Origin: Aureisphaera galaxeae | Lineage (GTDB): Bacteria > Bacteroidota > Bacteroidia > Flavobacteriales > Flavobacteriaceae | Reading direction: 5' to 3' | DNA length: 64,000 bases | NCBI RefSeq assembly: GCF_028561275.1 | Contig: NZ_JAQQTF010000002.1 | Coordinates: 1-64,000 of the forward strand | In this document: positions 42,787 to 58,085 of the stretch, one piece after another | Position numbering within the stretch: position 1 is the stretch's first letter | Layout: each line of letters opens with the position of its first letter | The notes under the pieces: generated by a model | Database searches by the model: none | What the model saw: only the letters and a program-made list of their open reading frames with translations | Told to the model about the DNA's origin: nothing | Translations under genes and position numbers: made by a program

Positions 42787-43593
42787 TTATCGAAGTTCTT
42801 TCAATAGTTGTTTGGCATCCTCATGCATGAAGTAAGTTGGTTCGGCAGCAATGATATCTAAAACCTCCAAGCATTGCTCTTTATTTTCTTGTTTCAGGTA
42901 GGTGAGTGCTTTGTACCAATATCCCTTGTGGGCGTCTAAAGAATTGCTGTTTATAAGTCGATCAAAAGTCGCGAGGGCTTGTCGATAATTCCCTAATTCT
43001 ATATGAGCAGCACCCACATAGAGTAGGGCTTGGGCATACGATCCTTCCACAGCGATTTCCAAACTTTCTGAAGAAGCGATCACCCCTTCGTAATCTTTGG
43101 AGCGGAATAGGGATTCCAATCGGGCAGGGTCATTAGGGTCGCCTCCTTTGGTAACTAAGGAAGGTAAGTCTTCCCAGTTGTGGTATTCTTCAAATAAGGT
43201 ATTGAGGTTAGGGTCTTTTGGGTAGAATACAAAAATGGCAATGATAAGAATCGCGGCAATAGCACCCCAAAGGGATTTGTTGAACCATGGACTTTTAGAA
43301 GTAGTTTCGGAAACGGATGTTTGGTTTCTGAATGCTTTTAGCTTTTCTGAAAACTGAAGGGTGTCCTCAGATCTAAATAAATCTGCCTCTTTTTTCAGTA
43401 GTTCGGGAGCTCCTTCAAAAGTCATCCATTTTTCTTCATCCTCTAGGGCGTCGATGGTAGAATGAATGGTAACCCGTTCTTTAAGGTCAGGATCCTTTTC
43501 CATGGCATCTTCGAAAGCCGCATGCTCCTCTTCAGTCATTTCCCCTCGAAAATAACGCTCAATCTTCTGGTATTCCAATTCGTCTTCTTGCAT
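42787..43593 (-). CDS. Putative TPR-containing anti-sigma factor
   Basis: 268 residues. The N-terminal 85 residues are acidic and helical (YFRGEMTEEEHAAFEDAMEKDPDLKERV), the usual sigma-binding layout of Bacteroidota anti-sigma proteins though without a zinc motif. One membrane helix (about 107-124) and a periplasmic region with three or four TPR-like helix pairs (about 165-265) follow. It starts three bases after the ECF sigma gene, the classic position. The TPR part would sense an envelope signal. Sigma binding is inferred from layout and position. Confidence 0.72.
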   Translation of the reverse strand: MQEDELEYQKIERYFRGEMTEEEHAAFEDAMEKDPDLKERVTIHSTIDALEDEEKWMTFEGAPELLKKEADLFRSEDTLQFSEKLKAFRNQTSVSETTSKSPWFNKSLWGAIAAILIIAIFVFYPKDPNLNTLFEEYHNWEDLPSLVTKGGDPNDPARLESLFRSKDYEGVIASSESLEIAVEGSYAQALLYVGAAHIELGNYRQALATFDRLINSNSLDAHKGYWYKALTYLKQENKEQCLEVLDIIAAEPTYFMHEDAKQLLKELR

Positions 43594-43596
43594 AAT

Positions 43597-44148
43597 TTAG
43601 GTTTTGAGGCGTAGGTATCTCGGGTCTCTCTTAATGAGCTGAAGCAGTCGTGACTTGCATTTAAAAACCCGCTGTCGCGCGACCGTTTCGGAAGCATAAT
43701 TAAAGAAAGTAACAATCTCCTTATAAGCTATCTTTTTAAAGGTCATTCCTAAGAGTTTCCTACAATTTTCGGACAACTCCTTAAACTTTTCCTGATATAG
43801 ATCCCACTGGCTTTGCTCTATAGAAAACTTCGCCATATCTACGCTTTCATCAACTAGAGGGATAGTATCCAGATTTGTTACCCTATTTTTTGAACGTTCT
43901 CTTCTCCACATATTCCTACACATAGTGAAAAGGTAGCTTTCAAATGACTGAATTTGCAGTTCATCGTTTTTCAATTTCACGTATAAGGTGACCAAGGCAT
44001 TGTGAAAAATGTCTTCCGCCTCTGCCTTAGATCCGTTTCGGCTCATGATATAGCCTCGCACAGTAGGAAAAGATTGGGAATAGATTTTACGGAGTATATC
44101 TGGCTCTCCCCCCAGAAAGCCTTTTATAAAGGGATCCTCTTTATGCAT
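43597..44148 (-). CDS. ECF-type RNA polymerase sigma factor
   Basis: 183 residues. Region 2 (about 19-85) shows AEAEDIFHNALVTLYVKL and SYLFTMCRNMWRRERSK; region 4 (about 125-175) has a helix-turn-helix of the form AYKEIVTFFNYASETVARQRVFKCKSRL. The region 4 start, LGMTFKKI, departs from the common LxxxxGxSxxEIA form but keeps its spacing. It is divergent from the cohesin-like T9SS gene across 153 bases and directly upstream of the TPR anti-sigma gene, so it may drive either or both. Confidence 0.9.
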   Translation of the reverse strand: MHKEDPFIKGFLGGEPDILRKIYSQSFPTVRGYIMSRNGSKAEAEDIFHNALVTLYVKLKNDELQIQSFESYLFTMCRNMWRRERSKNRVTNLDTIPLVDESVDMAKFSIEQSQWDLYQEKFKELSENCRKLLGMTFKKIAYKEIVTFFNYASETVARQRVFKCKSRLLQLIKRDPRYLRLKT

Positions 44149-44301
44149 ATGCAGAAATGCCTTGAAATGGGCCGAATAAAATTACTTGAAAATTCTTGGG
44201 TAACAAAATGTGACTCTACCCTCTTAAAAATGAATCGATTCGGGAACAGGCGGAATCTGAAAAGCCTTAATAGAGTAGGAGTAAACTAATACCATTTTAC
44301 A

Positions 44302-46824
44302 ATGAAAAAAATTCTTTTCTTTTTTGCGTTTCTGTGCTTTGCGTTCGGGAGTGCAAATGGGCAGATAGAAATTAATATTGGAACGGCGTCTGGAAATTCT
44401 GGCGACAATGTTACGATTCCAGTATTGGCTTCTGCTCCAACGGTAACAGAAAACCTGTTGGGTTTTCAGGGAACGATCGAGTTTTCCGATGCTTCGGTAA
44501 TGGACTTCATAGATATGACCGATTTCCCCACAGCCAATGGAATGTTTAACCAAGTTTCGGCCACGCAAATTGCATTTTTGTGGTTCGATAATGCACTAGT
44601 GGGGATTCCAGTAGACATAGATACGCTGCTGTTCAATATAAACCTTACCCTCACTGGTCAGGGTTGTTCGGCTATAGATCTAAACGGATCTTTTGCAGAG
44701 ATTGAATTCATAACCAACAGCGGATTGCTTACGCCTACCATAAATCCAGGGCAGGTATGTACTGGCTTGCAACCTCCCGGTACGATCGATATTACATTTG
44801 GTTGTGTAGATGGGAACGTGGGGGATGTCGTAAGTGTTCCTGTACTCGCCACTGCGAATGGAAATGTAGATCCTTTACAGGGCTTTCAGGGAACCATAGA
44901 ATTCTCCAATGCTGCGATGCTGGATATTCAGGGAATATCCAATTTCCCATCGGCCAGTAGTGGCTTTAATATTGTTTCTCAAAGTCAGATCGTGTTTTCT
45001 TGGAACGATGTTCCCAACCCTTTACCCATAGGAACCAATACGGTTTTATTCCATGTGGATGTGTTAATTACAGATGTGGGATGCTCCGCCATTGATTTGA
45101 ATGGCTCCGTTGCTGGGGTCGAATTTATTAATGATAGCGGTTTGGTAGACTTTACGGTGACGCCTTGTAATATCTGCGGATTGGATGGCGGTACGGGAAC
45201 CATTGATATTTCATTTGGATGCATGGATGGCAATGTAGGGGATACAGTAAGCATTCCCGTTTTTGCTACTGCGATAGGAAACGTAAATCCGTTGGTTGGC
45301 TTTCAAGGAACGATCGAGTTCTCGAATGCCGGTATAGTAGATATACAGGGTATTTCTAACTTTCCTTCGGCCAGTAGTGGGTTCAATGTTGTTTCCCAGA
45401 CTCAAGTGGTTTTCTCTTGGAATGATGTTACGAATCCGGTACCCGTAGGAACTAATACCGTACTATTTAATGTAGACGTTGTTATTACCGATGTGGGATG
45501 TACCGAAATCGACTTCAATGGCTCTGAACTTGCGGTAGAACTAATTGACAGCGATACGAATTTGGTCAACTTCACGGTAACCACCTGCGAGATCTGTGGT
45601 ACAGACGAAAATTGCCAAGACGAACCGTATATCGAGCCGTACTGGAGTCATCCAGATTGTCCGGATGTAGTTTGTACGGCAGACCAATGGCCTATTCAAG
45701 TATTGAGTGCCGATGGTACTCCTATTACTTCCGCTGGGGGTGTACAGATTTCATGGCATAATCCTGATACTGGGGAAACGCAAAATCAAGATTGGATTTA
45801 CACAGAACCTCATGAAACATGGATCGTAACGATTACCTATCCTGCACCAGATAATTGTGTGTATACAGCTACTTATGTAGAACATTGTTGTGAAGGTGAA
45901 ATCCATATTGAAGCCATTGATTGTCCAGAGGCACAGACAGGCAAGCTTCTTGAAGATCTCTACGAAGCAAGAGGAACTTATACTGATGCAGACTTTAAGG
46001 CCATGGAGGAATACATTACCACTATGGGCTCCAAAGGAGAGGGTTGCGACCCTTGTGATGAAGGATGGGTATTGACGCATATCGTAGATGGAGCCGGGAA
46101 TGATATCGATCCTGGATGTACCGTTATTTGGTCCGATGGAGGAAGCGGTACGATGCGCTTACTTCAAGTAGACGTATTGTATACGGTTACCGTTATAAAA
46201 GATATGGGTGGATATGAATGCTCTTTTGAAGACGAATTCATTTATTACTGTGATGTAGATTGTACGACGCTGCCTGCACCTACAAATCTACAGGTGGTAG
46301 GAACTACCCTTACTTGGGATCCCGTACCGGGAGCGGTAGAATATATCGTTTCTTCTCCTCCAGGTGGTGTCCCACAAATTGACTGTGGTTGTAAGGTAGG
46401 CGTTTCTATAGCACCCCTTACTACGACTACGAACAGTGTGGCCCTTCCTTCTGGTTTATGGGACAAGTGTTTTGTTTGGAGAGTTCAGGCAGTTTGTAGG
46501 GACGGATCTACTACAGACTTTTCCAATCAGGAATGTTTCATACCTGTTCGTCTAAGCGACCGTGTTTTCGAAACTGCCGTGGTTTCGCCTAATCCGAATC
46601 GCGGAAGCATGAATTTTGTACTACAGACCAGTTATGATACCCAGGTCGATGTACAGATCCATGATTTCTACGGAAATGTTCGTCATAGTTTCTCCGAAAA
46701 GCTGAAGGCACATGAGGAACGCATTGTACAGTGGAATGCTTCCGGGCGATTAGCTTCCGGAATTTATTTCGCGGTATTTACGACGGAAAATGGAACCATC
46801 CACAAAAGGATTGTTGTAGAATAG
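44302..46824 (+). CDS. T9SS-secreted protein with three cohesin-like repeats and an Fn3-like domain
   Basis: 840 residues with a signal peptide (ending ANGQ). Three repeats of about 130 residues (about 22-158, 160-295, 299-432) have the cohesin pattern: G-x-GDxVxIPV, then GFQGTIEFSNA, VFSWND and LFxVDV strands. A Cys-rich region (about 435-650) with D/E-rich turns follows, then an Fn3-like domain (PAPTNLQVVGTTLTWDPVPGAVEY) and a T9SS type A tail (VVSPNPN ... KRIVVE). Cohesin folds bind dockerins in cellulosomes, but isolated ones occur widely in adhesins; no dockerin was seen here. It is divergent from the ECF sigma gene. Confidence 0.87.
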   Translation: MKKILFFFAFLCFAFGSANGQIEINIGTASGNSGDNVTIPVLASAPTVTENLLGFQGTIEFSDASVMDFIDMTDFPTANGMFNQVSATQIAFLWFDNALVGIPVDIDTLLFNINLTLTGQGCSAIDLNGSFAEIEFITNSGLLTPTINPGQVCTGLQPPGTIDITFGCVDGNVGDVVSVPVLATANGNVDPLQGFQGTIEFSNAAMLDIQGISNFPSASSGFNIVSQSQIVFSWNDVPNPLPIGTNTVLFHVDVLITDVGCSAIDLNGSVAGVEFINDSGLVDFTVTPCNICGLDGGTGTIDISFGCMDGNVGDTVSIPVFATAIGNVNPLVGFQGTIEFSNAGIVDIQGISNFPSASSGFNVVSQTQVVFSWNDVTNPVPVGTNTVLFNVDVVITDVGCTEIDFNGSELAVELIDSDTNLVNFTVTTCEICGTDENCQDEPYIEPYWSHPDCPDVVCTADQWPIQVLSADGTPITSAGGVQISWHNPDTGETQNQDWIYTEPHETWIVTITYPAPDNCVYTATYVEHCCEGEIHIEAIDCPEAQTGKLLEDLYEARGTYTDADFKAMEEYITTMGSKGEGCDPCDEGWVLTHIVDGAGNDIDPGCTVIWSDGGSGTMRLLQVDVLYTVTVIKDMGGYECSFEDEFIYYCDVDCTTLPAPTNLQVVGTTLTWDPVPGAVEYIVSSPPGGVPQIDCGCKVGVSIAPLTTTTNSVALPSGLWDKCFVWRVQAVCRDGSTTDFSNQECFIPVRLSDRVFETAVVSPNPNRGSMNFVLQTSYDTQVDVQIHDFYGNVRHSFSEKLKAHEERIVQWNASGRLASGIYFAVFTTENGTIHKRIVVE
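44779..45597 (+). repeat. Tandem cohesin-like repeats 2 and 3, near-identical in DNA
   Basis: Unit 2 starts at 44779 and unit 3 at 45196. They share long stretches at base level around the GFQGTIEFSNA and SNFPSASSGFN segments, whereas unit 1 (from about 44362) is more diverged. This suggests a recent internal duplication. Confidence 0.8.
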
Positions 46825-46914: not shown

Positions 46915-49680
46915 TTAAGATTTCCTGATAAATTTACTGCCTAGAATAAATAACAAGGGAACAATAAGTAGTAACCAAAGCAAGGGTTTAGGAAAACGAG
47001 ATGGTGTGTCTAAGGCAATGGGACCATCATAACCCGTTAATGTAATGGGGCTCCAATAGAAAGGAGAAGCCTCGCTGGTATTTGCATATTGGTTTAAGTA
47101 GGCGAGTTTCGCATCTCTAAGGGCTTTAGATTTTGTTTTACCAGAAGCTAATTCATCATAAAACTTTGTGGTGATCTCAAAACTTGACTTTTCGTTCACA
47201 TTCCATAGTGTAGACACTACACTTCGGGCTCCAGCTTTAAAAAACCCTCGTTTAATGCTGAAGATACCCTCCCCTTTTTTTAGATCACCTACATCTGTTT
47301 TACAAGCACTTAAAACCACCATTTCCTTTCTGTTTTTCAGTAGGAAAAGTTCATCCAACCGCAATTCCGAGTCATAAAAAGCTAACCATGGGCCATTACC
47401 ATCTGTCCCTCCATGGGTAGAAATATGAATGACCGAATTCTTATCGAATTCCTCCAGAAAGGCATCTTTGGAAGCCTCTTTGAACGTATATATATCCTCT
47501 TGAAAGTAAGCCCACAAAGCTTCCGATTCCCGCAGACCATACGTAAGCTCATCCATAGGAGGGTTTCTGAATATGATCGGGTAAAAACTTGCCGTACTCG
47601 TGCTTCCGTTTTCTCGCAGACGCCCTATCTGTACATCCAATGAATGTGAGTATTTATAGAGTACGTTGCATTGGGAAATGAGATACGCTTCGGGAAGGGG
47701 TAAATCTTCCGAGACGGTAAGTGCTTCAAAAGGTACTGTTTGAATAATCCCGTCGGGAATAATGGTAATAGAATCCCAGTCGAAGGTTTCGGCAAAATCT
47801 TCGAAGGGGAGCAGAATTTTATACAGTTGGGTAGCACGAAATACATATTCCGTTATTTCCTGTTGATTCCCGAAAGGTTTCGTCCAAAGTTTCTGGAGTT
47901 CTTGGATGCGTTCCACTAGTTTTGGGACGCTCGAAGAGAGTTGACGGAATTGAACTCCTTCTTTCGAAATCATGAGCGCATACCCTAAGCTATCTCCTAA
48001 AGCATAGCTTACGATGCGTTCGTCTTTCTTCATGTCCTTTTGAATGTCTTGGAACGAGGAAATAGTAAGCTGTTTTTTGGAGCTCACATATACGGGATAG
48101 ATGGCTTCCAGTGAGTCTACAAACTTCCTATGTCGGTTTTTTAGCTTTAAGAGTTCTTTCTTCGTGGCTTCAACTTCGTCTTTGGCAACATCTTTCAACA
48201 TAGCTTGGGTCAATGAAAGCTGTCCCTCTTGCAACTTACGTAGCATAAATTCCTCCTGTTTCAATGCAACCGCGGGAATGTTAGCTCTTTGTTTGGCCCA
48301 AACATCTACCGTACTTTCCAATAGCAATAACCCTTTGTTTTTTTCCATGTAGTAAAGGGCTTGCTCAGGTTTTTGAGTGAGGAAAGCTACTTTTATTGCG
48401 TCTAAGTATAATGCAGATGCTTTTTCTCGCCAGTTCAGTTTAGAAATCACCTCGCGACTCTCTAAAAAAAGTTCATCAATAGTAGCATCGGCTAAGGTTA
48501 AAACGGCTTCAGCCTCTCGCAGACAGCGCTTCTCTCCACTTTCTTCGTAGTAACGAATCCAAGCACTCGAAAGATCGTTTAAATAGCCGAACAGACGTTT
48601 CTTGTCTGGGGAAATTCCTATTTCCGCCTTAGAGGGTAGTTTCCTTTTTGGAGTTGAGGTATGTCCATGGGCAACCCAAGAAACGGCATCGTAGTAATGG
48701 TCCAATCCTTTTTCCGGATGACCGGATCGAAACTCCAAATCACCCAGATGATTGGATACATTACTCAATAAAATGGGATTCTTTTCGGTATACGCTCTAG
48801 CCTTTTCGAAATAGGGCCTTGCTTTTTCGAAATAGCCCTCCTCAATTTCAATACCCCCAAGTATGGTAAGTGAATAAAATACGTCTTGCGTTGCTTCCAA
48901 TTCTTGAAACATGGGCAAGGCCTTGCGGGCATTCTGTCTGGCTTCATCATAACTACCCGCAATTTTATACATGGCCGCTGTGTTAAGAAGGACCTTTGCC
49001 CAACGCCATTTGCTTATTTCTACACCCTCCAATGAATCAATATTGCTTCGAACGCGAAGGAAGTCGTCCAATTGGGAGGGGTCGCCAATATCTACATAGT
49101 TTGCCAGTGTATTGATGAGCGTAATGAGTTCCCTGTCCGGGCGTTCTCCCTTTTTTAGGATTTGCCGTGATAATTGATAGTGCTCCAATGCATTTTGAAA
49201 ATCCCCCCAATGGTTATAGATATTCCCTAATTCTCGGTATGCCGTGCCGCTCCTTATTTCGTGATCCTCTGAGACAGATACCAAGGTGTCATAATAGGCC
49301 TTGGCGGCCCAAAGATCGGGCTCATCGGCATAGTAATGGAAATACCCTAAATTGTACAGATTCCTTTTGGTCTTATCATCTGTAGGAGGATATTTCAACA
49401 AGCGAAGGGCTCGTTCTTTTTTACCATACCATTGCGCCTTTACGGCATTGTTATTACGAACCTTACACCATTTGGCAAATTCATAATAGGCATCTTCTAA
49501 ATGCGGAGTGTCTTCGGGAAGTTTTCCGAGATAATTTTCTATACTCGCTTCCTTTTCGGGATTGGGTATTTCCAAAACCAAAAGGGAGTCTACATACTCT
49601 GCTACAGTTTGTTGGGAATGGGCCGTGGCCATTGCCAAAACGAAGCATAACCAAAGTACCGTTTTTCTTATTTCCCCCAT
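46915..49680 (-). CDS. Exported TPR-CHAT peptidase with C-terminal membrane anchor
   Basis: 921 residues. A signal peptide (about 1-22, ending AHSQ) starts the protein; TPR helices fill about 60-420 (DFQNALEHYQLSRQIL, YEKARPYFEKARAYTEK-like units), then coiled coils, then a CHAT domain (about 620-880). The caspase-like dyad is H756 (ISTHGG) and C793 (VLSACKTDVG); GARSVVSTLWNV and SPFYWSPITLTG are also CHAT blocks. The last 25 residues are one membrane helix (LLWLLLIVPLLFILG) and a basic tail. The CHAT part should therefore face the periplasm, anchored in the inner membrane. A subtilisin-type lipoprotein gene lies directly upstream on the same strand, 112 bases away. Confidence 0.88.
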   Translation of the reverse strand: MGEIRKTVLWLCFVLAMATAHSQQTVAEYVDSLLVLEIPNPEKEASIENYLGKLPEDTPHLEDAYYEFAKWCKVRNNNAVKAQWYGKKERALRLLKYPPTDDKTKRNLYNLGYFHYYADEPDLWAAKAYYDTLVSVSEDHEIRSGTAYRELGNIYNHWGDFQNALEHYQLSRQILKKGERPDRELITLINTLANYVDIGDPSQLDDFLRVRSNIDSLEGVEISKWRWAKVLLNTAAMYKIAGSYDEARQNARKALPMFQELEATQDVFYSLTILGGIEIEEGYFEKARPYFEKARAYTEKNPILLSNVSNHLGDLEFRSGHPEKGLDHYYDAVSWVAHGHTSTPKRKLPSKAEIGISPDKKRLFGYLNDLSSAWIRYYEESGEKRCLREAEAVLTLADATIDELFLESREVISKLNWREKASALYLDAIKVAFLTQKPEQALYYMEKNKGLLLLESTVDVWAKQRANIPAVALKQEEFMLRKLQEGQLSLTQAMLKDVAKDEVEATKKELLKLKNRHRKFVDSLEAIYPVYVSSKKQLTISSFQDIQKDMKKDERIVSYALGDSLGYALMISKEGVQFRQLSSSVPKLVERIQELQKLWTKPFGNQQEITEYVFRATQLYKILLPFEDFAETFDWDSITIIPDGIIQTVPFEALTVSEDLPLPEAYLISQCNVLYKYSHSLDVQIGRLRENGSTSTASFYPIIFRNPPMDELTYGLRESEALWAYFQEDIYTFKEASKDAFLEEFDKNSVIHISTHGGTDGNGPWLAFYDSELRLDELFLLKNRKEMVVLSACKTDVGDLKKGEGIFSIKRGFFKAGARSVVSTLWNVNEKSSFEITTKFYDELASGKTKSKALRDAKLAYLNQYANTSEASPFYWSPITLTGYDGPIALDTPSRFPKPLLWLLLIVPLLFILGSKFIRKS

Positions 49681-49715
49681 CAGTAAAACGTTTTGCAGGT
49701 TAAAGATACTATTTA

Positions 49716-49742
49716 GGGGAAGGAATTGGAAATCCCTTCCCC
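49716..49742. terminator. Stem-loop between the S8 peptidase and CHAT genes
   Basis: GGGGAAGG pairs with CCTTCCCC, extended by ATT/AAT after one mismatch. No T run follows on the minus strand, so it may attenuate or protect RNA rather than terminate. Confidence 0.45.
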
Positions 49743-49792
49743 AGTGGTCTAAATAATAATAGTTGTACCTAAACCTAATTATTCAAACCTCA

Positions 49793-51043
49793 CTAATAGT
49801 AGATGTAAGAGTGGTACAGTATGTTATTCAGGTTATCATCCGGAATACCACTGGCAATCACGGACGAAATAAGCTGACTGGGACTCATGCCAGGTACATG
49901 CATACCCGCGGCGATGGCCGAAGCGTATGCGTTAGCGTATGAGGTTCCGTATAGTAAGATATATTCGTTTGCATCTATATAAAATGGAATGTTCTCACCC
50001 GGTGCAGCCAAGTCTACAGAGCCTTCCCCCCAATTGGAAAAACGGGATAATCCTACCTCTATCAAGTCTGTATTCCACGATGCGATAGACAGGATATTGG
50101 CGTCTTCGTATGAAGAAGGGTAATGACGAACGAGATCATTGTTATTTTCGTCATTTCCAGCAGAGGCTACGATCACTTTTTTATCCAAGGTTTCTTCTAT
50201 AAATCGTTTCAGTAACTCATATTGGGTTTCATACCATCCAAAACTTAAATTGATAATGGCCACATCTTCATTGTTGGCGGCATACCTAAATCCACAAAGG
50301 ATATCAAAGTAGGTTCCGATACCGTTTTGATCGAATACTTTTACTGGAAGTACTTGAAAATCCACATCCTGGGCATCCAATGTTTCGTATATGAGGGAAA
50401 TTACCTGTGTAGCATGTCCGTGGTCGTCGAACGGATTGTTGTCTTGTTCTACAAAGTCCCATCCTATATAATCATTCATACCGTTGTCCGTACAGGAATC
50501 CCCCGAAGCTTCACTATTGTAAAGAAAAGGTTCTTCGAAACGGAAATAGTTATAATCAATGCCCGTATCCAATACAGCGATAGTCACCCCACTATTGGTT
50601 GTGGACATGATATCCAATCCCGTTGTAATGTGCGCTGGACCAAAAGGGGCGCTTAACTCTATACCATCATGCTTAATAATGGGATTGAATTCCGAACCTT
50701 CAACACCGGCATCATCTTTTGTAGATTCTGTTACACCCTCTAGCGTGCCTCCGCCTGGCAAGTTACCATTAGAATCAACTTCGAAGATCCATAATTCCAA
50801 GCTAGGATCTGCACAGGAACAGGTTTTATAGTCCTCTACCTGATAGAAGTCCCGTAACACTTGCTTTTCTGCCTCTGTAAGGCCGGCGTCATACTTAATA
50901 ATTACCTGTCCTGGGACCAATACATTTCCTCCCACAAAATCTGTAGTGGGTCCATTTTCTAGGACTTCAGGGGTATTTGTGGTTTCTTTTTCACATGCGG
51001 ATATGAGTAGCAATAATGCTACGAATAAACATAACTTTTTCAT
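49793..51043 (-). CDS. S8 (subtilisin-family) serine peptidase lipoprotein
   Basis: 416 residues from the ATG at 51043; an upstream ATG at 51094 would add 17 charged residues before the signal and is less likely. The signal ends in a lipobox (LISAC). The catalytic triad is D159 (VLDTGID), H208 (DDHGHATQ) and S368 (YGTSYANAYASAIAAG), with oxyanion N297 in SAGNDEN. The segment before the catalytic domain contains an inhibitor-like prodomain (VPGQVIIKYDAGLTEAEKQVL). The Pro of the usual GTSMAxP motif is Tyr here. The enzyme should be on the outer face of a membrane. It precedes the CHAT gene. Confidence 0.92.
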   Translation of the reverse strand: MKKLCLFVALLLLISACEKETTNTPEVLENGPTTDFVGGNVLVPGQVIIKYDAGLTEAEKQVLRDFYQVEDYKTCSCADPSLELWIFEVDSNGNLPGGGTLEGVTESTKDDAGVEGSEFNPIIKHDGIELSAPFGPAHITTGLDIMSTTNSGVTIAVLDTGIDYNYFRFEEPFLYNSEASGDSCTDNGMNDYIGWDFVEQDNNPFDDHGHATQVISLIYETLDAQDVDFQVLPVKVFDQNGIGTYFDILCGFRYAANNEDVAIINLSFGWYETQYELLKRFIEETLDKKVIVASAGNDENNNDLVRHYPSSYEDANILSIASWNTDLIEVGLSRFSNWGEGSVDLAAPGENIPFYIDANEYILLYGTSYANAYASAIAAGMHVPGMSPSQLISSVIASGIPDDNLNNILYHSYIYY

Positions 51044-51374
51044 AATTGTTGTTTTAATAATTAGGTTTAGGTTTTGTATTCTTCGAATTCTCACAAGGAG
51101 AATTAATAGGGCATATTTGTCTTGTTTTTTATGCCCGGGTTCATCTTACTCTATTGCAGGCTTTTCAGATTTCGCCTTTTGTGAATCGATTCAACCACAT
51201 GAGGTTAATCCCGAAATTTGTTACCCATAAGGTCATGAATTTTTTGTTCGAAGAGTCCTATTTCCGTTAAACACACAATTCTTTTATGGTAATTCCACAA
51301 TGGGATATTTCTCCTTCTAGTTTTCAAAGAATGAAAAGGTCGAAAGGCAGAAAATGGATTTTGAAATGGGAAGC

Positions 51375-52481
51375 TTACACCGCTTGGTGCTGCTTTTTGA
51401 ATTCTAAAGGGGAAATGGAAGTCATCTTTTTGAAGGCGTTATAAAATGCAGACTTGGAACGGAATCCCGATTCGCTGGCGATGCCTTCAACCGTGTATTT
51501 GGCAAAAGTGTCATCCAATAACAATGTTTTTGCATACTCAATGCGGTAGGTATTGATGAAATCGAAAAAGGACTTTCCCGATTTACCATTGATACTTTGT
51601 GAAAGGTAGTTGGGATTGGTTTCCAAAGCATCCGAAAGGCCCTTTAAGGTAAGGGTAGGATTTAGAAAAGGCCTTTCCCTTTCAAAATACAGTTGCAGTT
51701 CCTGGAACAAGCGATCCTTTTCCGTATCTGCCAGGGTAGGAGTTTGCCTGGAAAAAGACTTTACTGGGGCAATGATGCCCAAACCCTGATAGATTTCTGG
51801 ACGGAGTAAAACGACCAGCATGATAATAAAACAGAAGACACTTAAGAATCCCGATAGAATCAGCACTTCATTTTGTCCAATTTGCAAGGCAATTAGGGAA
51901 ACTGCAACGGGACTAAGTATGAGATATAGGATAAAACCATAGAACCAGATCAGCACATTTTGATTCGTATAGGAATACTCTTCCTTTGCCAATTGATGGT
52001 ACCGGCGAATGTCTTTATAGATCAAATAAATATAAAATAGTGCAACGGCAATAAAACTCACTTCCCGTTGTAAGGGATACCAATCGGAACCTGCATTCAT
52101 CCGTTGCAGATATTCCAATTTTTCTGCATCGGACAGGGGTAGTATTACCGATGCCCATAAGGCCAGTTGAATTAGGAATGGAATAACATGGAGTAGTTGT
52201 GCTGGTTTAAAAGAATAGCTGTTTGTTAGGTAAGTGCGTACGTAAAAGAAAAGGATGGGTCCTCCCAGGAAGGCCAAGGCATATCCCAACAAAGAGACCT
52301 GGGGTAGCACTTCGATCCTGTTCAACGAAAACAGGAGCAAACAACATCCCAAAAACACCAACAAAGCCGTGAGCCATCGATTGGCCTTTACATCGTATTT
52401 GCTATTGAACAGCAGCACGATGGCAAAACTTATAAGCTGGAGCGCACTGAATATGAGTATAGCAAGAAAGGCCTGTGTCAT
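51375..52481 (-). CDS. Membrane-bound AraC-family regulator
   Basis: 368 residues. Seven membrane helices (about 1-230) are followed by a cytoplasmic AraC helix-turn-helix pair (about 262-362; LKGLSDALETNPNYLSQSIN and VEGIASESGFRSKSAFYNAFKKMTSISP). This layout senses a signal in or across the membrane and acts on DNA directly. It is divergent from the large HYR gene across a 210-base region that contains the CTATAG repeat, so that gene is the likely target. Minus-strand neighbours downstream are the S8 and CHAT genes. Confidence 0.9.
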   Translation of the reverse strand: MTQAFLAILIFSALQLISFAIVLLFNSKYDVKANRWLTALLVFLGCCLLLFSLNRIEVLPQVSLLGYALAFLGGPILFFYVRTYLTNSYSFKPAQLLHVIPFLIQLALWASVILPLSDAEKLEYLQRMNAGSDWYPLQREVSFIAVALFYIYLIYKDIRRYHQLAKEEYSYTNQNVLIWFYGFILYLILSPVAVSLIALQIGQNEVLILSGFLSVFCFIIMLVVLLRPEIYQGLGIIAPVKSFSRQTPTLADTEKDRLFQELQLYFERERPFLNPTLTLKGLSDALETNPNYLSQSINGKSGKSFFDFINTYRIEYAKTLLLDDTFAKYTVEGIASESGFRSKSAFYNAFKKMTSISPLEFKKQHQAV

Positions 52482-52599
52482 GGTTTATAATAGTAGGACT
52501 AAGGTAGGCTTTTCCATCCCCATTTTAAAATGATACCGTGATTTACTTGTCAAAAGACTTAATTATAAATATTTGATTATCAGTATTTTATGATCTTGT

Positions 52600-52625
52600 C
52601 TAGAGTTTTGTCTATAAGCTATAAT
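52600..52625. promoter_or_regulatory. CTATAG-type repeat upstream of the HYR gene
   Basis: CTAGAG-TTTTGT-CTATAA (52600-52617) matches, in reverse orientation, the element at 63077. It ends 75 bases before the ATG at 52692. The following GCTATAATAGG also resembles the bases after the second element. Confidence 0.45.
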
Positions 52626-52691
52626 AGGTTTTTAGGGGCAGATTCTGGTGTTTTGACCCAACGAATTTACGAACCCCAAAATAATGACCCT

Positions 52692-55600
52692 ATGAAATTC
52701 TATTACCCCAAACACCTTATTTTCTCCTTTCGGAAGAATGATCCACTACAGCATACGCGCATTTCATTGTTGCTAAGTCTGGTACTCGTCATTTTACTTT
52801 TAAACTCCTCAGTCCTACTGGGCAGAATGTCCTACTCACATATCGCATATACACCCTTACCTGTAGGCCTTATCTGCCCAGGCAATAGCACTATAAATAA
52901 TGATCCTGGTCAATGTAATGCATTTGTCACGGTATCACCACCTATAGTAACCGAAGGTGGCGTGCCTGCCCCCGTCGTAGGACCGCTAACGACCTTTAAT
53001 GTCAATGGTTCTAATCAATTGATAGACACCCCTACCTTACTCGAAGAACTTACCTATCACGTCGTAGATGTTTCCTTGGAAATTTTCTTTACAGGGGATT
53101 TTAGTGATTCGTCCGAGTGCTTTGACCTAACTGGCCCGGACGGATCACTTATATACTCAGTTTGCGATGTTGGGAATTCATGCATTGATGTAAATGATTC
53201 GGTCACGATTCCCGCAGCCACATGGAACGGTTGGTTAGATACTTTTGGAAGGGACCTCACCTTTACACTTTTGGGAGATCCAGATGTTGAGGGCGATGTC
53301 ATCTGTATCGATAATCATTTTCAACTCACTCTGGTGTACCCGCTAACATATACGCTTACCAACGATTACAATGGGACCGATGACGCTTCGGATACCTATC
53401 CGGTGGGAACAACCACGGTAACTTGGACGGTGGTAGATTTTGACGGAACCACAGACACCTGCTCCATGGACGTCACGGTAGTAGATGCCGAAGCACCTGC
53501 TATAACCTGTCCAGATGATATTACGGTGGAGCAAGACGGAGGTATTTGTGGCGCTGTCGTTGACTACACACTGCCTATCGTAAGTGATAATTGTCTCTTG
53601 GGGGGAATACCCTCTACTTTCATACCCATGGGAGAATATAACGACAAGGCTTATTTTCTATCGGTTGGAACTGCCACTGCTCCAGATGCATTTACTGAGG
53701 CTGAGTCCTTGGGAGCCTATTTAGCTACCATTCCCGATGCAGCTACCAATAATTTTGTTCGCACCGCGGCCAATGATGCCGGATGGGGCGGAGCCATTCT
53801 AATTGGATATAATGATATAGCTGTAGAAGGTACTTTCGAATGGCACAGCGGAGCCCCTGTGACCTATGAAAATTGGATTCCCGGTCAACCTGATGCCACC
53901 TTCCCGTTGGAGGATTATGTGGTGATGCGCAACACAGAGCAATGGAACGATATTCCCGATGGTACCGGTAGAAGGTATGTGATCGAATTCGATCTTTCCC
54001 CAACGCAAACCGCTGGCCTTCCAAGTGGAAGTGTTTTCCCTATGGGGACCACCACCAATACCTTCGAGTATACAGATAATTCGGGAAACACCACTACCTG
54101 TAGTTTCGATGTTACCGTATTAGACACCGTTCCACCGGTATTGGACAGTTGCCCATCCGATGTGGTTGTGCCAACGGCAGCGGGAACTTGCGAAGCAATA
54201 CTTAATGTTTCCTTACCCAATGCAACCGATACCTGTTCTGGAGTGACAGTGACATCCGATCCTTCTCCGGGAACCATACTTCCTTGGGGAACTCATATCA
54301 TTACCGTAACAGCTACAGATGATGCCGGCAATACAGATACATGCTCGTTTAATTTTGTGGTTCAGGATAACGAGGCTCCCATCGTAACCTGCCCCGCTGA
54401 TATTGTGGTAAATAATGATCCAGGAACTTGTGGAGCTGTGGTTACCTTCCCTAATGCCACGGCGGTAGACAATTGTACCCCTACACAAGTGCTTCAGATA
54501 TTAGGTCCGCCGAGCGGAAGCGTATTTCCTGTAGGAACCACGATTGTTGGTTTTGAGGGATTCGATCTCTTCGGAAATAGTGACGTCTGCTTCTTTACGG
54601 TAACTGTAAATGATGTGGAAGCACCGGAGATTGCATGCCCAGGTACCATAGCTGCTAATTCCGAATTGGGAAGATGCGATGCAGAAGTAATGATTCCATC
54701 GCCTGTTGTTAGCGATCTTTGTGACTCCTCTTTTGTAGGCCCAATGACCGTATTCAATTTTGTTGGGGGCTCTTTAGCAGATACCCCTACGCTACTCAAC
54801 GGGGTACGACCCGTAATTCCTGGATCAGGAAACGTAAGAATTGATATTCGATTTGCTGGAGATTTTGATGAGCCTAGTGAATGCTTTCTTTTAAGAAATC
54901 CTGCAGGTATTACGTACGCCACGGAATGTAATGAAATGGCATGTACAGAAGACAGTACAGTAGCTTTGGTGGGATCCACCACTTGGAACAATTTAATTAC
55001 TACCTATGGCCCTGCACTTACATTTACGTTAGAGGCAGATTCGGATGTGGACCTGGCTTCTTGTTCAACAAACTATTTTCAGTTAGAGATAACCTATCCC
55101 GATGCTATTAACATAACAAATGACTTTAATGGAACGGATGATGCTTCAGACCGCTATCCGGTAGGGACCACAACGGTAAATTGGACAGCCGTAGATGCCT
55201 TTGGCAATAGTAGTACCTGTAGTATGGATGTTGTTGTAACGGACACCGAAGCTCCTGAAATTACCTGTTCTGATAACATAACTGCAGTAACAGATCCTGG
55301 CTTTTGCGAAGCCAATGTCTCTGTTTCCACGCCTAACATTTTGGGTATTTGCGATACGGGGACTGAGTTTACGGGTCCTCTTACCGATATGATTTTTGTA
55401 AGCAATGATTTGGTAGATACGCCTACAACTATTGCTGGGCTTCCCAGTACTACTGGGGATGTTACTATGGAGGTATATTTCGAAGGTGAGTTCGACTCTC
55501 CCGATGAGTGTTTCGTAATAAGCGGTCCGGACGGAATGGTTCTTTTTTCAGAATGCGCCCCAGAAACTTCGAGATGTGTCGGAACGTTTCGATCCTTCAT

Positions 55601-58085
55601 TGTACAAATGGATACTTGGAACTCTTGGATAACAACGTTCGGTCCAGATTTAACCTTTACACTGGAAGGAGATGAGGATGTAGGTGAAATAAGTGATTGT
55701 TCAGATACTTTTCAATTAAAAGCATTTATTCCCGTGCTTGAAGCTATTAATGATTATACGGGTACAAATGATGCTTCTGGAGTATATCCAGTGGGGACAA
55801 CGATAGTAACGTGGACGGTTGCAGATGCTGCAGGGAATGAAAGTTCCTGTACCATGGAGGTAACCGTTATAGATAACGAACCGCCCAATGTGGTATGTCA
55901 AGACATTGTTCTTTCGTTAGATGATTTGGGAAATGCTACCATAACCGCGGTTGACGTTTTAGGGGTCAATTCCGATAACTGCGGGGTAGCTTCTACTTCC
56001 CTTGATATCAATAATTTTGACTGTTCAAACATTGGCGACAACCAAGTCGAGGTAACTGTGACAGATGTCAGCGGAAACCAAACCACATGCACCGCAGTAG
56101 TCACGATTCAGGATACGACACCACCAGAGGTGCTATGCCAAGACATCACGGTTACTTTAGATGCGTCTGGACAAGCATCGATCACGCCAGCGGATATTGA
56201 AATATCATCTAGTGATAATTGTGGTATCGCTAGCAAGACCCTAGACATCGACACCTTCGATTGTTCCGACGTAGAACCCATAGAGGTAGCTCTTTTTGTT
56301 ACAGATACCAGTGGAAATGAAGCGTTTTGTTTGGTTACAGTAAATGTAGTAGATGATACACCGCCTGTAGCCGTATGTCAGGATATTACGGTAACACTAG
56401 ATGCTTCGGGACAAGCGAGTATTAGTCCTGCCGATATTGATGCAGGCTCATCGGATGTTTGTGGGATTGTTAACTACAACTTGGACATCGACACCTTCGA
56501 TTGTTCCCATATTGGAGATAACATGGTAACATTGACTGTTGCTGACCAAAGCGGAAATATGACATCCTGTGTAGCAACAGTCACGGTAGAGGATACCAAT
56601 GTACCTACGGTTTTATGTCAAGATATCACTGTGGAACTGGATACTTCGGGACAAGCCACTATTGTTCCATCAGATATTGATAATGGTTCTTCGGCAGTAT
56701 GTGGCATTGAGTACGTTGAATTGGATATAAATATTTTCGATTGTTCAAATATTGGGGATAATACGGTAACTCTTACGGTTACCGATTTCAGCGGAAATCA
56801 AGCGACTTGTACTGCTACGGTTACTGTTCAAGATACGACTCCACCTACAGTAGAATGTCAAAACATAATAATTTCTTTAGATGATTCGGGAAGCGCCGCC
56901 ATAACCGCAGTTGACGTTTTAGGGGTCAATTCGGATAACTGCGGGGTAGCTTCCTCATCTATTGATATCAGCACTTTCGACTGTTCAAACATCGGAGATA
57001 ACAATGTCGTGTTAACCCTAACCGATGCAAGTGGGAACGAAGCTTCCTGTACGGCAGTCGTTACTGTGCAAGACACGACGCTACCCAATGTAGTCTGCCA
57101 AGATATCACGGTTTCACTCGATGCTTCCGGGCAAGTTACCATTAGTCCTACCGACATTGGTGCTGGTTCTAACGATAATTGCGGAATAGCGGAATCTTCA
57201 ATTGATGTGGACACTTTCGATTGCAGCCATATCGGTGAAAATACGGTAATACTTACGGTAACCGATACCAATGGAAATACGGCAAGTTGTGAGGCCTTGG
57301 TAACCATTGTAGATGACACAGCTCCGGAATTGATTTGTATGGACATTAGTTTGTCATTGGATGAAAACGGGATGGCAAGCATCGTTCCTGAAGATGTAAT
57401 TGCTTCGAACAGCGATGCCTGTGGCATATTTACTTCTGCCGTAGACATTTTCGAATTCGATTGTGAAGACATTGGTACTCCAGTAACCGTTCAAATATTT
57501 ACCGAGGATATACACGGTAATATTGCTACTTGCTTTGCAACCGTGACGGTGGTGGATGACTTGGCTCCTGAGCTTACCTGTCCGGCTGATCAAACGGTCG
57601 ATCCCGGACCGGGCAATCTTTTCTACGAAGTACCCGATTATTTTGCCATTGGGGAAGCTAGCGCTATCGACAATTGTACAGATCCCTTAACCATTACATC
57701 TCAAGATCCTGAGGCGGGAACCTTACTTCCGGACGGAAATTACACCATTACCCTATCGGCCGAAGATGCCTTTGGAAATGTGGCAACCTGTGAATTTACG
57801 CTTACGGTAGAATCGACCTTGGGACAAAATGATGTTGGGGTTCTAGCTGGCGTAGAAATCTACCCCAATCCTGCGAAAGATCATATCGTGATTGAAAATC
57901 CCTTAGACCTCGAATTGGAAACACTTACTGTATTCGACCTTTTGGGAAGACGCATTCAACTACATGACCTTTCTCAAATGAGCGGGCAAAGAATCCTGGA
58001 CGTGTCCTTCATGGATAGTGCAGTGTACGTATTGGTCATCCAAGGAAAGAATGGAAAGCTGGTACAACAGCTTATTAAAGAATAA
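52692..58085 (+). CDS. Large HYR-repeat T9SS protein with nested lectin and P-like domains
   Basis: 1797 residues from the ATG at 52692, which precedes a signal segment; the frame is open from 52590 but the added residues are not signal-like. HYR domains run through the first half. Inside their DNC loops sit guest modules: three P-domain-like units (about 52977-53341, 54733-55100, 55366-55735; GDF/GEF-x-S/P-x-ECF and TWN-W motifs) and one C-type-lectin-like domain (about 53600-53993; GYNDIAVEGTFEW, WNDIPDGTGRRYVIEF). Seven 80-residue tandem repeats and one further HYR unit follow, then a T9SS type A tail (EIYPNPA ... QQLIKE). It should be a long surface adhesin. The next gene follows after 29 bases. 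Confidence 0.9.
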   Translation: MKFYYPKHLIFSFRKNDPLQHTRISLLLSLVLVILLLNSSVLLGRMSYSHIAYTPLPVGLICPGNSTINNDPGQCNAFVTVSPPIVTEGGVPAPVVGPLTTFNVNGSNQLIDTPTLLEELTYHVVDVSLEIFFTGDFSDSSECFDLTGPDGSLIYSVCDVGNSCIDVNDSVTIPAATWNGWLDTFGRDLTFTLLGDPDVEGDVICIDNHFQLTLVYPLTYTLTNDYNGTDDASDTYPVGTTTVTWTVVDFDGTTDTCSMDVTVVDAEAPAITCPDDITVEQDGGICGAVVDYTLPIVSDNCLLGGIPSTFIPMGEYNDKAYFLSVGTATAPDAFTEAESLGAYLATIPDAATNNFVRTAANDAGWGGAILIGYNDIAVEGTFEWHSGAPVTYENWIPGQPDATFPLEDYVVMRNTEQWNDIPDGTGRRYVIEFDLSPTQTAGLPSGSVFPMGTTTNTFEYTDNSGNTTTCSFDVTVLDTVPPVLDSCPSDVVVPTAAGTCEAILNVSLPNATDTCSGVTVTSDPSPGTILPWGTHIITVTATDDAGNTDTCSFNFVVQDNEAPIVTCPADIVVNNDPGTCGAVVTFPNATAVDNCTPTQVLQILGPPSGSVFPVGTTIVGFEGFDLFGNSDVCFFTVTVNDVEAPEIACPGTIAANSELGRCDAEVMIPSPVVSDLCDSSFVGPMTVFNFVGGSLADTPTLLNGVRPVIPGSGNVRIDIRFAGDFDEPSECFLLRNPAGITYATECNEMACTEDSTVALVGSTTWNNLITTYGPALTFTLEADSDVDLASCSTNYFQLEITYPDAINITNDFNGTDDASDRYPVGTTTVNWTAVDAFGNSSTCSMDVVVTDTEAPEITCSDNITAVTDPGFCEANVSVSTPNILGICDTGTEFTGPLTDMIFVSNDLVDTPTTIAGLPSTTGDVTMEVYFEGEFDSPDECFVISGPDGMVLFSECAPETSRCVGTFRSFIVQMDTWNSWITTFGPDLTFTLEGDEDVGEISDCSDTFQLKAFIPVLEAINDYTGTNDASGVYPVGTTIVTWTVADAAGNESSCTMEVTVIDNEPPNVVCQDIVLSLDDLGNATITAVDVLGVNSDNCGVASTSLDINNFDCSNIGDNQVEVTVTDVSGNQTTCTAVVTIQDTTPPEVLCQDITVTLDASGQASITPADIEISSSDNCGIASKTLDIDTFDCSDVEPIEVALFVTDTSGNEAFCLVTVNVVDDTPPVAVCQDITVTLDASGQASISPADIDAGSSDVCGIVNYNLDIDTFDCSHIGDNMVTLTVADQSGNMTSCVATVTVEDTNVPTVLCQDITVELDTSGQATIVPSDIDNGSSAVCGIEYVELDINIFDCSNIGDNTVTLTVTDFSGNQATCTATVTVQDTTPPTVECQNIIISLDDSGSAAITAVDVLGVNSDNCGVASSSIDISTFDCSNIGDNNVVLTLTDASGNEASCTAVVTVQDTTLPNVVCQDITVSLDASGQVTISPTDIGAGSNDNCGIAESSIDVDTFDCSHIGENTVILTVTDTNGNTASCEALVTIVDDTAPELICMDISLSLDENGMASIVPEDVIASNSDACGIFTSAVDIFEFDCEDIGTPVTVQIFTEDIHGNIATCFATVTVVDDLAPELTCPADQTVDPGPGNLFYEVPDYFAIGEASAIDNCTDPLTITSQDPEAGTLLPDGNYTITLSAEDAFGNVATCEFTLTVESTLGQNDVGVLAGVEIYPNPAKDHIVIENPLDLELETLTVFDLLGRRIQLHDLSQMSGQRILDVSFMDSAVYVLVIQGKNGKLVQQLIKE
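55887..57569 (+). repeat. Seven tandem 80-residue Cys-pair repeats in the HYR protein
   Basis: Each unit of about 240 bases encodes VxCQDITVxLDxSG, DNCGI, FDCSxIG and SGNxxxC segments. Units 1 and 5 share a block of about 55 bases (near 55940-55994 and 56898-56954) with only a few differences, pointing to recent copying between units. Confidence 0.88.

Follow-up and report, generated by a model that had tools for sequence, protein, structure and literature searches.

The window analysed here is a stretch of 64,000 nucleotides from Aureisphaera galaxeae (assembly GCF_028561275.1, contig NZ_JAQQTF010000002.1, positions 1 to 64,000). It encodes a protein that joins tetratricopeptide repeats (TPRs) to a CHAT peptidase domain, a subtilisin-family (S8) lipoprotein, and an extracytoplasmic function (ECF) sigma factor with a putative anti-sigma membrane protein. 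We describe this gene set and its relatives and argue that the TPR-CHAT protein may make the first, or site-1, cut in the anti-sigma-like protein. The features needed first all lie on the minus strand:

46915 to 49680, minus: TPR-CHAT peptidase of 921 amino acids (aa), predicted to be exported and C-terminally anchored; H756 and C793, putative S1 pocket residues E718, S791 and E830 (open reading frame (ORF), Pfam, hydropathy, alignment, co-variation)
47032 to 47835, minus: CHAT domain, residues 616-883 (PF12770)
46930 to 46983, minus: predicted C-terminal transmembrane anchor of the CHAT protein, about residues 900-917, with positive tail (hydropathy)
43597 to 44148, minus: ECF sigma factor, 183 aa, upstream of the anti-sigma-like gene with a 3 bp gap (Sigma70_r2, 1.1e-7; TIGR02937)
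42787 to 43593, minus: anti-sigma-like membrane protein, 268 aa, with N-terminal helical domain, transmembrane helix 102-122, predicted periplasmic coil and C-terminal TPR domain (ORF, TPR matches, AlphaFold2 model)
43129 to 43167, minus: putative periplasmic linker of the anti-sigma-like protein, residues 143-155, LPSLVTKGGDPND, with K149 as the proposed residue (P1) after which CHAT would cut (AlphaFold2 coil, conservation, co-variation)
49793 to 51043, minus: S8 subtilase lipoprotein, 416 aa, lipobox C17, triad D159, H210 and S368 (Pfam, start codon, alignment)
50585 to 50917, minus: prodomain-like N-terminal region of the S8 protein, about residues 43-153, with invariant CxC (profile matches, alignment)

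The CHAT protein

The original prediction gave the CHAT protein a signal peptide, TPRs, an H756/C793 dyad and a C-terminal anchor, and Pfam, hydropathy and alignment bear this out. PF12770 matches residues 616-883 at 1.3e-41 (143.4 bits against a curated cut-off of 24), TPR profiles match as well, and the N-terminus, MGEIRKTVLWLCFVLAMATAHSQ, resembles a Sec signal peptide. By hydropathy the C-terminus forms a single hydrophobic helix followed by KFIRKS, and the protein has no strong hydrophobic stretch besides this helix and the N-terminal signal.

For comparison we used 120 Flavobacteriaceae genomes, 56 of which hold 91 CHAT matches. We took in 88 of these, six from the A. galaxeae genome and 82 in 80 regions; the other three (G062:C216, G030:C25 and G051:C96) are all partial. 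CHAT tallies were restricted to proteins of at least 800 aa, and a second sample comprised 80 loci from Bacteroidota. In 77 of the 78 proteins aligned, the dyad columns hold histidine and cysteine; the remaining protein is truncated by a contig end. All 71 anchored Flavobacteriaceae CHAT proteins have a positive tail and 69 of them a signal-peptide-like N-terminus. Hydropathy and charge thereby support the prediction that the CHAT domain faces the periplasm, as had been proposed at the outset. In NCBIfam the only CHAT model matched was Csx29, at 1.7e-5 and 23.9 bits, below its cut-off of 300, and a PDB sequence search with the CHAT domain gave only a chance match (E 1.1).

Other kinds of CHAT protein were also seen. 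The A. galaxeae genome has six CHAT matches, of which five are long, exported and anchored by these signals. A 223-aa protein of another kind with a hydrophobic C-terminal stretch (L022:6434-7105, C16:324511 of the same genome) showed no ECF match in the 13 kb inspected; L022 and L098-L101 hold other CHAT types that the first CHAT profile missed. Six exported proteins (L025, L035, L048, L053, L057 and L068) end just after the CHAT domain, with no anchor and no ECF or anti-sigma neighbours in the stretch inspected, and form a separate exported CHAT type. At L169, L168, L213, L191 and L192 two to four CHAT genes stand in tandem, with one ECF/anti-sigma pair or none in the stretch inspected.

The ECF sigma factor and its putative anti-sigma partner

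The sigma factor scores 44 bits with the TIGR02937 sigma70-ECF model, just above the cut-off of 42.9. The AlphaFold2 model of the anti-sigma-like protein (mean predicted local distance difference test score 86.1) has N-terminal helices, a transmembrane helix at 102-122, a coil at 143-155 and a TPR domain. Fold searches returned weak TPR matches, the best being the periplasmic YbgF TPR domain at 4.4e-3, with none at or below 0.001. The anti-sigma model NF052375 matched the relatives at L021 (1.4e-4) and L018 (2.5e-3), both below its cut-off, and did not match the window protein; zf-HC2 matched 2 of 52 anti-sigma-like proteins. A transmembrane helix is present in 115 of 118 of these proteins and a charge bias placing the N-terminus inside in 111 of 118, as expected by sequence for a single-pass protein with its TPR sensor domain outside.

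ECF genes beside exported CHAT proteins had been named at the outset as something to count. An association holds for the anchored CHAT proteins, though in the window the ECF gene is not directly adjacent, a type IX secretion system (T9SS) gene lying between. Both genes occur within 8 kb of 66 of 71 anchored Flavobacteriaceae CHAT genes (63 of 66 when only loci with at least 5 kb of sequence on each side are counted), and neither occurs within 8 kb of the seven unanchored ones, a set that includes the contig-cut protein L102. In 40 random 20-kb regions from the same genomes, sigma matches were found in five (best E 2.4e-12) and an anti-sigma match in one, a different protein of 1,010 aa; with rebuilt profiles the numbers were five and two. 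A search of the A. galaxeae genome gave five near-full-length anti-sigma matches (4.1e-72 to 5.1e-38, the next at 1.7e-9), one for each anchored CHAT protein (window, L018, L019, L021 and L020), the L020 pair lying 9.4 kb from its CHAT gene and so beyond the 8-kb limit.

The association also holds in reverse. We searched 118 genomes from across the Bacteroidota, scoring 23 anti-sigma candidates per genome and reading CHAT distances by eye, and 16 of the 23 anti-sigma matches from other genomes lie within 10 kb of a CHAT gene. CHAT was found in 61 of these genomes and an anti-sigma match in 12, so that most CHAT genomes are without it. Across 65 cassettes, with several in each of 17 genomes, CHAT distances correlate with anti-sigma distances (r 0.64; mean of within-genome swaps 0.26) and with sigma distances (r 0.52; mean of swaps 0.20), and in neither case did any of 1000 swaps reach the observed value. 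The widely shared partner of CHAT is the pair of ECF factor and membrane anti-sigma-like protein, and not the S8 protein.

Co-variation of the linker with the CHAT domain

Conservation is equal, at 1.33 bits, in the TPRs and in the anti-sigma stretch 123-155, which includes the linker, and position 149 is arginine or lysine in 89 of 116 proteins. Across 118 CHAT/anti-sigma pairs, 96 combine a basic residue in 145-152 with an acidic residue at CHAT 718, 18 have neither and four are mismatched. All 86 pairs with a linker arginine have D830; of the 13 with a linker lysine, as in the window, eight have E830, four have D and one has L (in 5 of the 86 arginine and 2 of the 13 lysine pairs the alignment is off register at 149 and the basic residue was taken elsewhere in 145-152).

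Ranked over all pairs against a linker arginine, CHAT columns 830, 718 and 791 come first to third of 833, and against any basic linker residue the order is 718, 791, 798, 712 and 830. Without the operon clade, the best CHAT columns for anti-sigma position 149 are 830, 718 and 791, and among 171 x 51 column pairs none is stronger than 830 with 149. When CHAT characters were simulated on the tree, 3000 runs reached the observed association never for 830 or 718 and once for 791. The two proteins also change jointly: the operon clade has S or G in the linker with L, V, I or T at 718, L094, L150 and L151 have Q with K at 718, and L204 has M with N at 718.

CHAT 791 lies two residues before the catalytic cysteine. 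Caspase-1 holds its P1 residue with R179, Q283 (likewise two before the cysteine) and R341, and we take CHAT 718, 791 and 830 to match these three S1 places by their order along the chain. The co-variation suggests that CHAT cuts the anti-sigma-like protein outside the inner membrane.

A putative site-1 protease

We propose that the TPR-CHAT protein is anchored in the inner membrane, faces the periplasm and acts as site-1 protease for an ECF sigma/anti-sigma pair of its own, and on the sequence evidence we give this a probability of roughly 0.6. From the gene set, topology signals, co-occurrence, co-variation and shared promoter sequence that were computed, we infer a signal, a cut, a site-2 step, and sigma binding and action at promoters that would run as follows. 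At rest the anti-sigma-like protein (42787-43593) would keep the ECF factor (43597-44148) at the membrane, while the TPR domain of the anti-sigma-like protein would lie on the periplasmic side. Some signal, perhaps relayed by a lipoprotein (the prodomain or S8), would engage the CHAT TPRs, and CHAT would cut the linker after K149, between LPSLVTK and GGD. The stump would then be degraded further in a site-2 step, and the freed sigma factor would transcribe the T9SS gene and the S8-CHAT unit from GGGTAAC-N16-CTCWT promoters, giving positive feedback. The claim names one bond (K149-G150), three pocket residues (E718, S791 and E830) and two promoters.

A number of observations weigh against this proposal. 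The S1 assignment of 718, 791 and 830 comes from their position along the chain and from caspase structure, not from a model of this CHAT protein. The co-variation has exceptions at L161, L196, L198 and L076, and the independent changes behind it are few: in the CHAT columns the tree shows five to six. When the operon clade is included, CHAT 798 and 712 with anti-sigma 226 are the strongest pairs and 830 with 149 is third; 14 anti-sigma partners of this clade carry S or G at the linker position, and therefore its cleavage site would differ. A solved anti-sigma domain is absent among the 50 fold matches listed for the anti-sigma-like protein, and its putative role is drawn from position, architecture and weak family matches to relatives. 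In the second Bacteroidota sample both genes lie near 48 of 73 anchored CHAT genes (34 of 43 with flanks) and also near 5 of 15 called unanchored, although L144, L170 (twice), L172 and L193 in this class show a weaker hydrophobic tail and the last copy at L169 is cut. The rule linking CHAT, ECF and anti-sigma therefore weakens with distance from the Flavobacteriaceae, and no CHAT lies within 10 kb of 7 of the 23 anti-sigma matches that the phylum sample gave in other genomes.

The T9SS gene and the putative cassette promoters

Between the sigma gene and the CHAT gene lies a T9SS gene, and one promoter-like site each precedes this gene and S8-CHAT:

44302 to 46824, plus: T9SS-secreted protein with cohesin-like N-terminus; C-terminal part, residues 439-840, common to other cassettes (Pfam cohesin and Por_Secre_tail; blastp)
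44198 to 44225, plus: putative ECF-type promoter GGGTAAC-N16-CTCTT before the T9SS gene (motif search; related operon in L071, L143, L144 (two) and L170)
51199 to 51226, minus: putative ECF-type promoter GGGTAAC-N16-CTCAT before S8-CHAT (motif search)

In the closest relatives (L071, L143 and L144) the order is anti-sigma, ECF and then, divergently, T9SS protein, S8 and CHAT; relative to these the S8-CHAT pair is inverted in the window. By blastp the window T9SS protein matches the T9SS genes of L071, L143, L144 and L018. Its residues from about 439 to 840 are 50% (L071) and 41% (L143) identical to theirs, and its N-terminus is variable. The paralogous cassette at L018 (L018:4835-7276, A. galaxeae C16) has a trypsin domain with a related C-terminus. 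The cassette T9SS proteins (L018, window) share a C-terminal region with exchanged N-terminal parts (cohesin-like, trypsin, unknown), which gives them the look of polymorphic cargo.

The window holds two copies of the motif GGGTAAC-N16-CTCWT, one at 44198 pointing to the T9SS gene and the other at 51226 pointing to S8; none of 100 shuffles reached two. Genome-wide, GGGTAAC-N15-17-CTCWT has four sites, of which the window pair are the N16 ones, and the reversed control gave six. Among 246 loci the CTCTT version is found only before the T9SS genes of L071, L143, L144 (two) and L170 and in three copies of the window. The genome-wide uniqueness count is partly circular because the -10 letters were read off known sites (window, L071, L144 and L170), and among the loci the only fresh match is L143. 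Of 115 sigma genes, 45 have GTTACC in the 300 bp before them, as opposed to 37 of 669 control ORFs. Since the same promoter type precedes both, the S8-CHAT unit and the T9SS gene would belong to the regulon of the window ECF factor.

The shorter element TTTGTTACCC was rejected as a regulon marker by itself: it occurs three times in the window (0 of 100 shuffles reach three), but 18 times in the genome as opposed to 32 in the reversed control, and is therefore not informative alone. The third copy, at 43874-43883 within the ECF coding sequence, reads GGGTAACAAA toward the anti-sigma gene, with similar sites in L071, L143 and L144, and is either a coding coincidence or an internal promoter. In another class CHAT is preceded by an outer-membrane-type gene; a -10 element for it, sought in the 246 loci with fixed spacing only, gave no match.

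As CHAT itself lies behind an ECF-type promoter, it may be only an output of the sigma factor. As an envelope protease it would then mature or degrade the T9SS and lipoprotein products made along with it, and another protease would cut the anti-sigma protein. The promoters agree with this, the type being found before S8-CHAT and, in relatives, before the whole T9SS-S8-CHAT operon. However, it leaves unexplained why linker position 149 co-varies best with CHAT 830, 718 and 791, and why unanchored exported CHAT proteins of the same family are without the ECF/anti-sigma pair, and we consider it unlikely.

The S8 lipoprotein and its clade

The subtilisin-family lipoprotein directly upstream of CHAT, predicted from the start, was confirmed: from the ATG at 51043 it has the lipobox LISAC and PF00082 at about residues 151-390. 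The triad D159/H210/S368 is intact, and its columns hold D, H and S in all 27 S8 neighbours that were aligned, a set with some near-identical members. What had been called an apparent prodomain corresponds to residues 43-153 or so, in which the CxC (C75 and C77) is invariant across the same 27 proteins.

The A. galaxeae genome has 11 S8 rows, amounting to 10 proteins, and an S8 gene adjoins three of its five anchored CHAT genes (window, L018 and L019). In a tree of 164 CHAT proteins the window clade has a support of 1.0 and 28 members. Co-occurrence of the two genes in related genomes, one of the points on which the original prediction was to stand or fall, was upheld here, with S8 upstream in 27 of the 28 (26 within 1.2 kb, L149 at 1.3 kb) and a short lipoprotein in its place at L042. 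S8 adjacency as a family-wide rule was rejected, S8 being mainly confined to this one clade. Outside it, S8 profile matches were found at L019 and L072 (both with a T9SS-type S8 gene beyond the opposite end of CHAT, at 60 bp and 2.4 kb), at L171 (upstream, Saprospiraceae) and weakly at L155 (3 kb off), though the profile may miss distant subtilases; three of the 40 random regions also gave S8 matches. At L019 the T9SS-type S8 protein directly after CHAT (L019:6914-8785) is hit by two germination protease models, CspBA (4.3e-41) and CspC (5.6e-29), with scores well short of the cut-offs.

In the sister clade of 26 CHAT proteins, 19 have a short lipoprotein at the S8 position, and no S8 catalytic domain was found at that position. 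Four of the short lipoproteins match a profile of the S8 N-terminal region built without the lipobox (5.2e-5 to 0.024) and are the only ORFs below 300 aa to do so among 6,185 ORFs, the other short ones being too diverged to tell; profile-profile comparison of the two groups gave a probability of 92.6%. Because these short lipoproteins occupy the S8 position, the constant element by sequence is the lipoprotein, in some cases with a recognisable S8 prodomain, and the protease domain is optional.

At least two acidic residues follow the lipobox cysteine in 15 of 20 S8 proteins, 15 of 22 short lipoproteins and 24 of 99 control ORFs (counting only proteins with a pattern-recognised lipobox, the control ORFs being unverified). 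This stretch resembles the surface export signal described in PMC5080379, and may direct the S8 lipoproteins to the cell surface.

A functional link between S8 and CHAT is favoured by their conserved adjacency and shared promoter type, and the form first suggested was a periplasmic relay in which either the S8 prodomain would be cut by CHAT or CHAT would be activated by S8. S8 stands upstream in nearly the whole clade with its triad kept throughout, the pair has the cassette's promoter type, and the N-terminal region keeps its CxC, all of which a relay would suit. With that said, a direct two-protease cascade did not hold up as the general mechanism and is not our first choice: the sister clade lacks the catalytic domain, other anchored CHAT clades pair with ECF and anti-sigma genes without S8, and the boundary between prodomain and catalytic domain has no conserved basic column (highest 48%), unlike the anti-sigma linker, although CHAT may cut there with another specificity. 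The acidic stretch may, moreover, send S8 to the surface. We regard a relay as improbable, and the best reading of S8 is as a co-regulated output or accessory of the CHAT cassette.

A scaffold in which the CHAT TPRs bind the anti-sigma TPR domain and the switch is not proteolytic would make use of the TPRs in both partners, predicted on the same side of the membrane, but with the dyad kept in 77 of 77 complete aligned proteins and the co-variation sitting in the CHAT domain, partly beside the catalytic cysteine, it is very unlikely.

Comparison with known systems

The site-1 protease reading is the most economical, and it has a precedent: Csx29, itself a TPR-CHAT protein, cuts Csx30, the inhibitor of an ECF-like sigma factor (PMC10028731). 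As in Csx29-Csx30-CASP-sigma (type III-E CRISPR, Craspase), the window has a TPR-CHAT gene beside genes for an ECF-type sigma factor and its putative inhibitor. Unlike Csx29, the window protein is predicted to be exported and membrane-anchored, its inhibitor would be a membrane protein with periplasmic TPRs, and its score lies far below the NCBIfam cut-off for Csx29 (23.9 against 300 bits).

PrsW and the cleavage of RsiP by signal peptidase are examples of regulated intramembrane proteolysis of ECF anti-sigma factors. Our proposal shares with these and with DegS/RseA an ECF sigma factor, a membrane anti-sigma protein and a first cut proposed outside the cytoplasm, and differs from them in that the site-1 protease would be a caspase-fold cysteine peptidase. 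The general scheme is given in PMC8999054 and the DegS/RseA site-1 cleavage in PMC8103513. A search of the open-access literature turned up no caspase-fold site-1 protease for anti-sigma factors.

A similar published context is that of ECF54, for which conserved carboxypeptidase, subtilase and CHAT proteins are described and proteolytic control is proposed (PMC8999054, section 3.3). Judged by this description, the window, L018, L019 and the clade of 28 are similar in having CHAT and a subtilase, but unlike ECF54, which has no anti-sigma factor, the window has an anti-sigma-like gene 3 bp behind its ECF gene, a pairing repeated across genomes. HetF, a cyanobacterial CHAT protein and putative protease involved in cell division and heterocyst formation, also has one predicted transmembrane segment, but no ECF sigma/anti-sigma partner is named for it in the part of PMC8406250 considered here. 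Our open-access search gave no paper on an exported TPR-CHAT protein with an ECF/anti-sigma pair, nor did we find in open-access print an exported CHAT protein paired with a membrane anti-sigma protein, such a co-varying cut site or the cassette promoter.

According to PMC7406223, only 6% of Bacteroidetes ECF factors have a recognised class I anti-sigma factor close by, so the control of most of them calls for another explanation. If our proposal is true, control of one recurring set of Bacteroidota ECF factors would be accounted for, CHAT proteases outside CRISPR would gain a defined substrate, and there would be a hint at the origin of the Craspase sigma module. As a tentative extension, which we think rather doubtful, these loci could form a class of Bacteroidota envelope cassettes with a periplasmic caspase-fold site-1 protease for ECF anti-sigma factors, in which the co-expressed lipoprotein (S8 prodomain with or without the subtilase) is a surface sensor or tethered regulator. 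Csx29-Csx30-CASP-sigma would then be a cytoplasmic relative of the module in which the envelope signal was swapped for an RNA signal.

Other genes in the window

Beyond the S8 gene, an AraC-type regulator at 51375-52481 adjoins a gene at 52590-58085 for a repetitive protein of 1,831 aa. To the eye, the C-terminal tail of this protein resembles a T9SS sorting signal.

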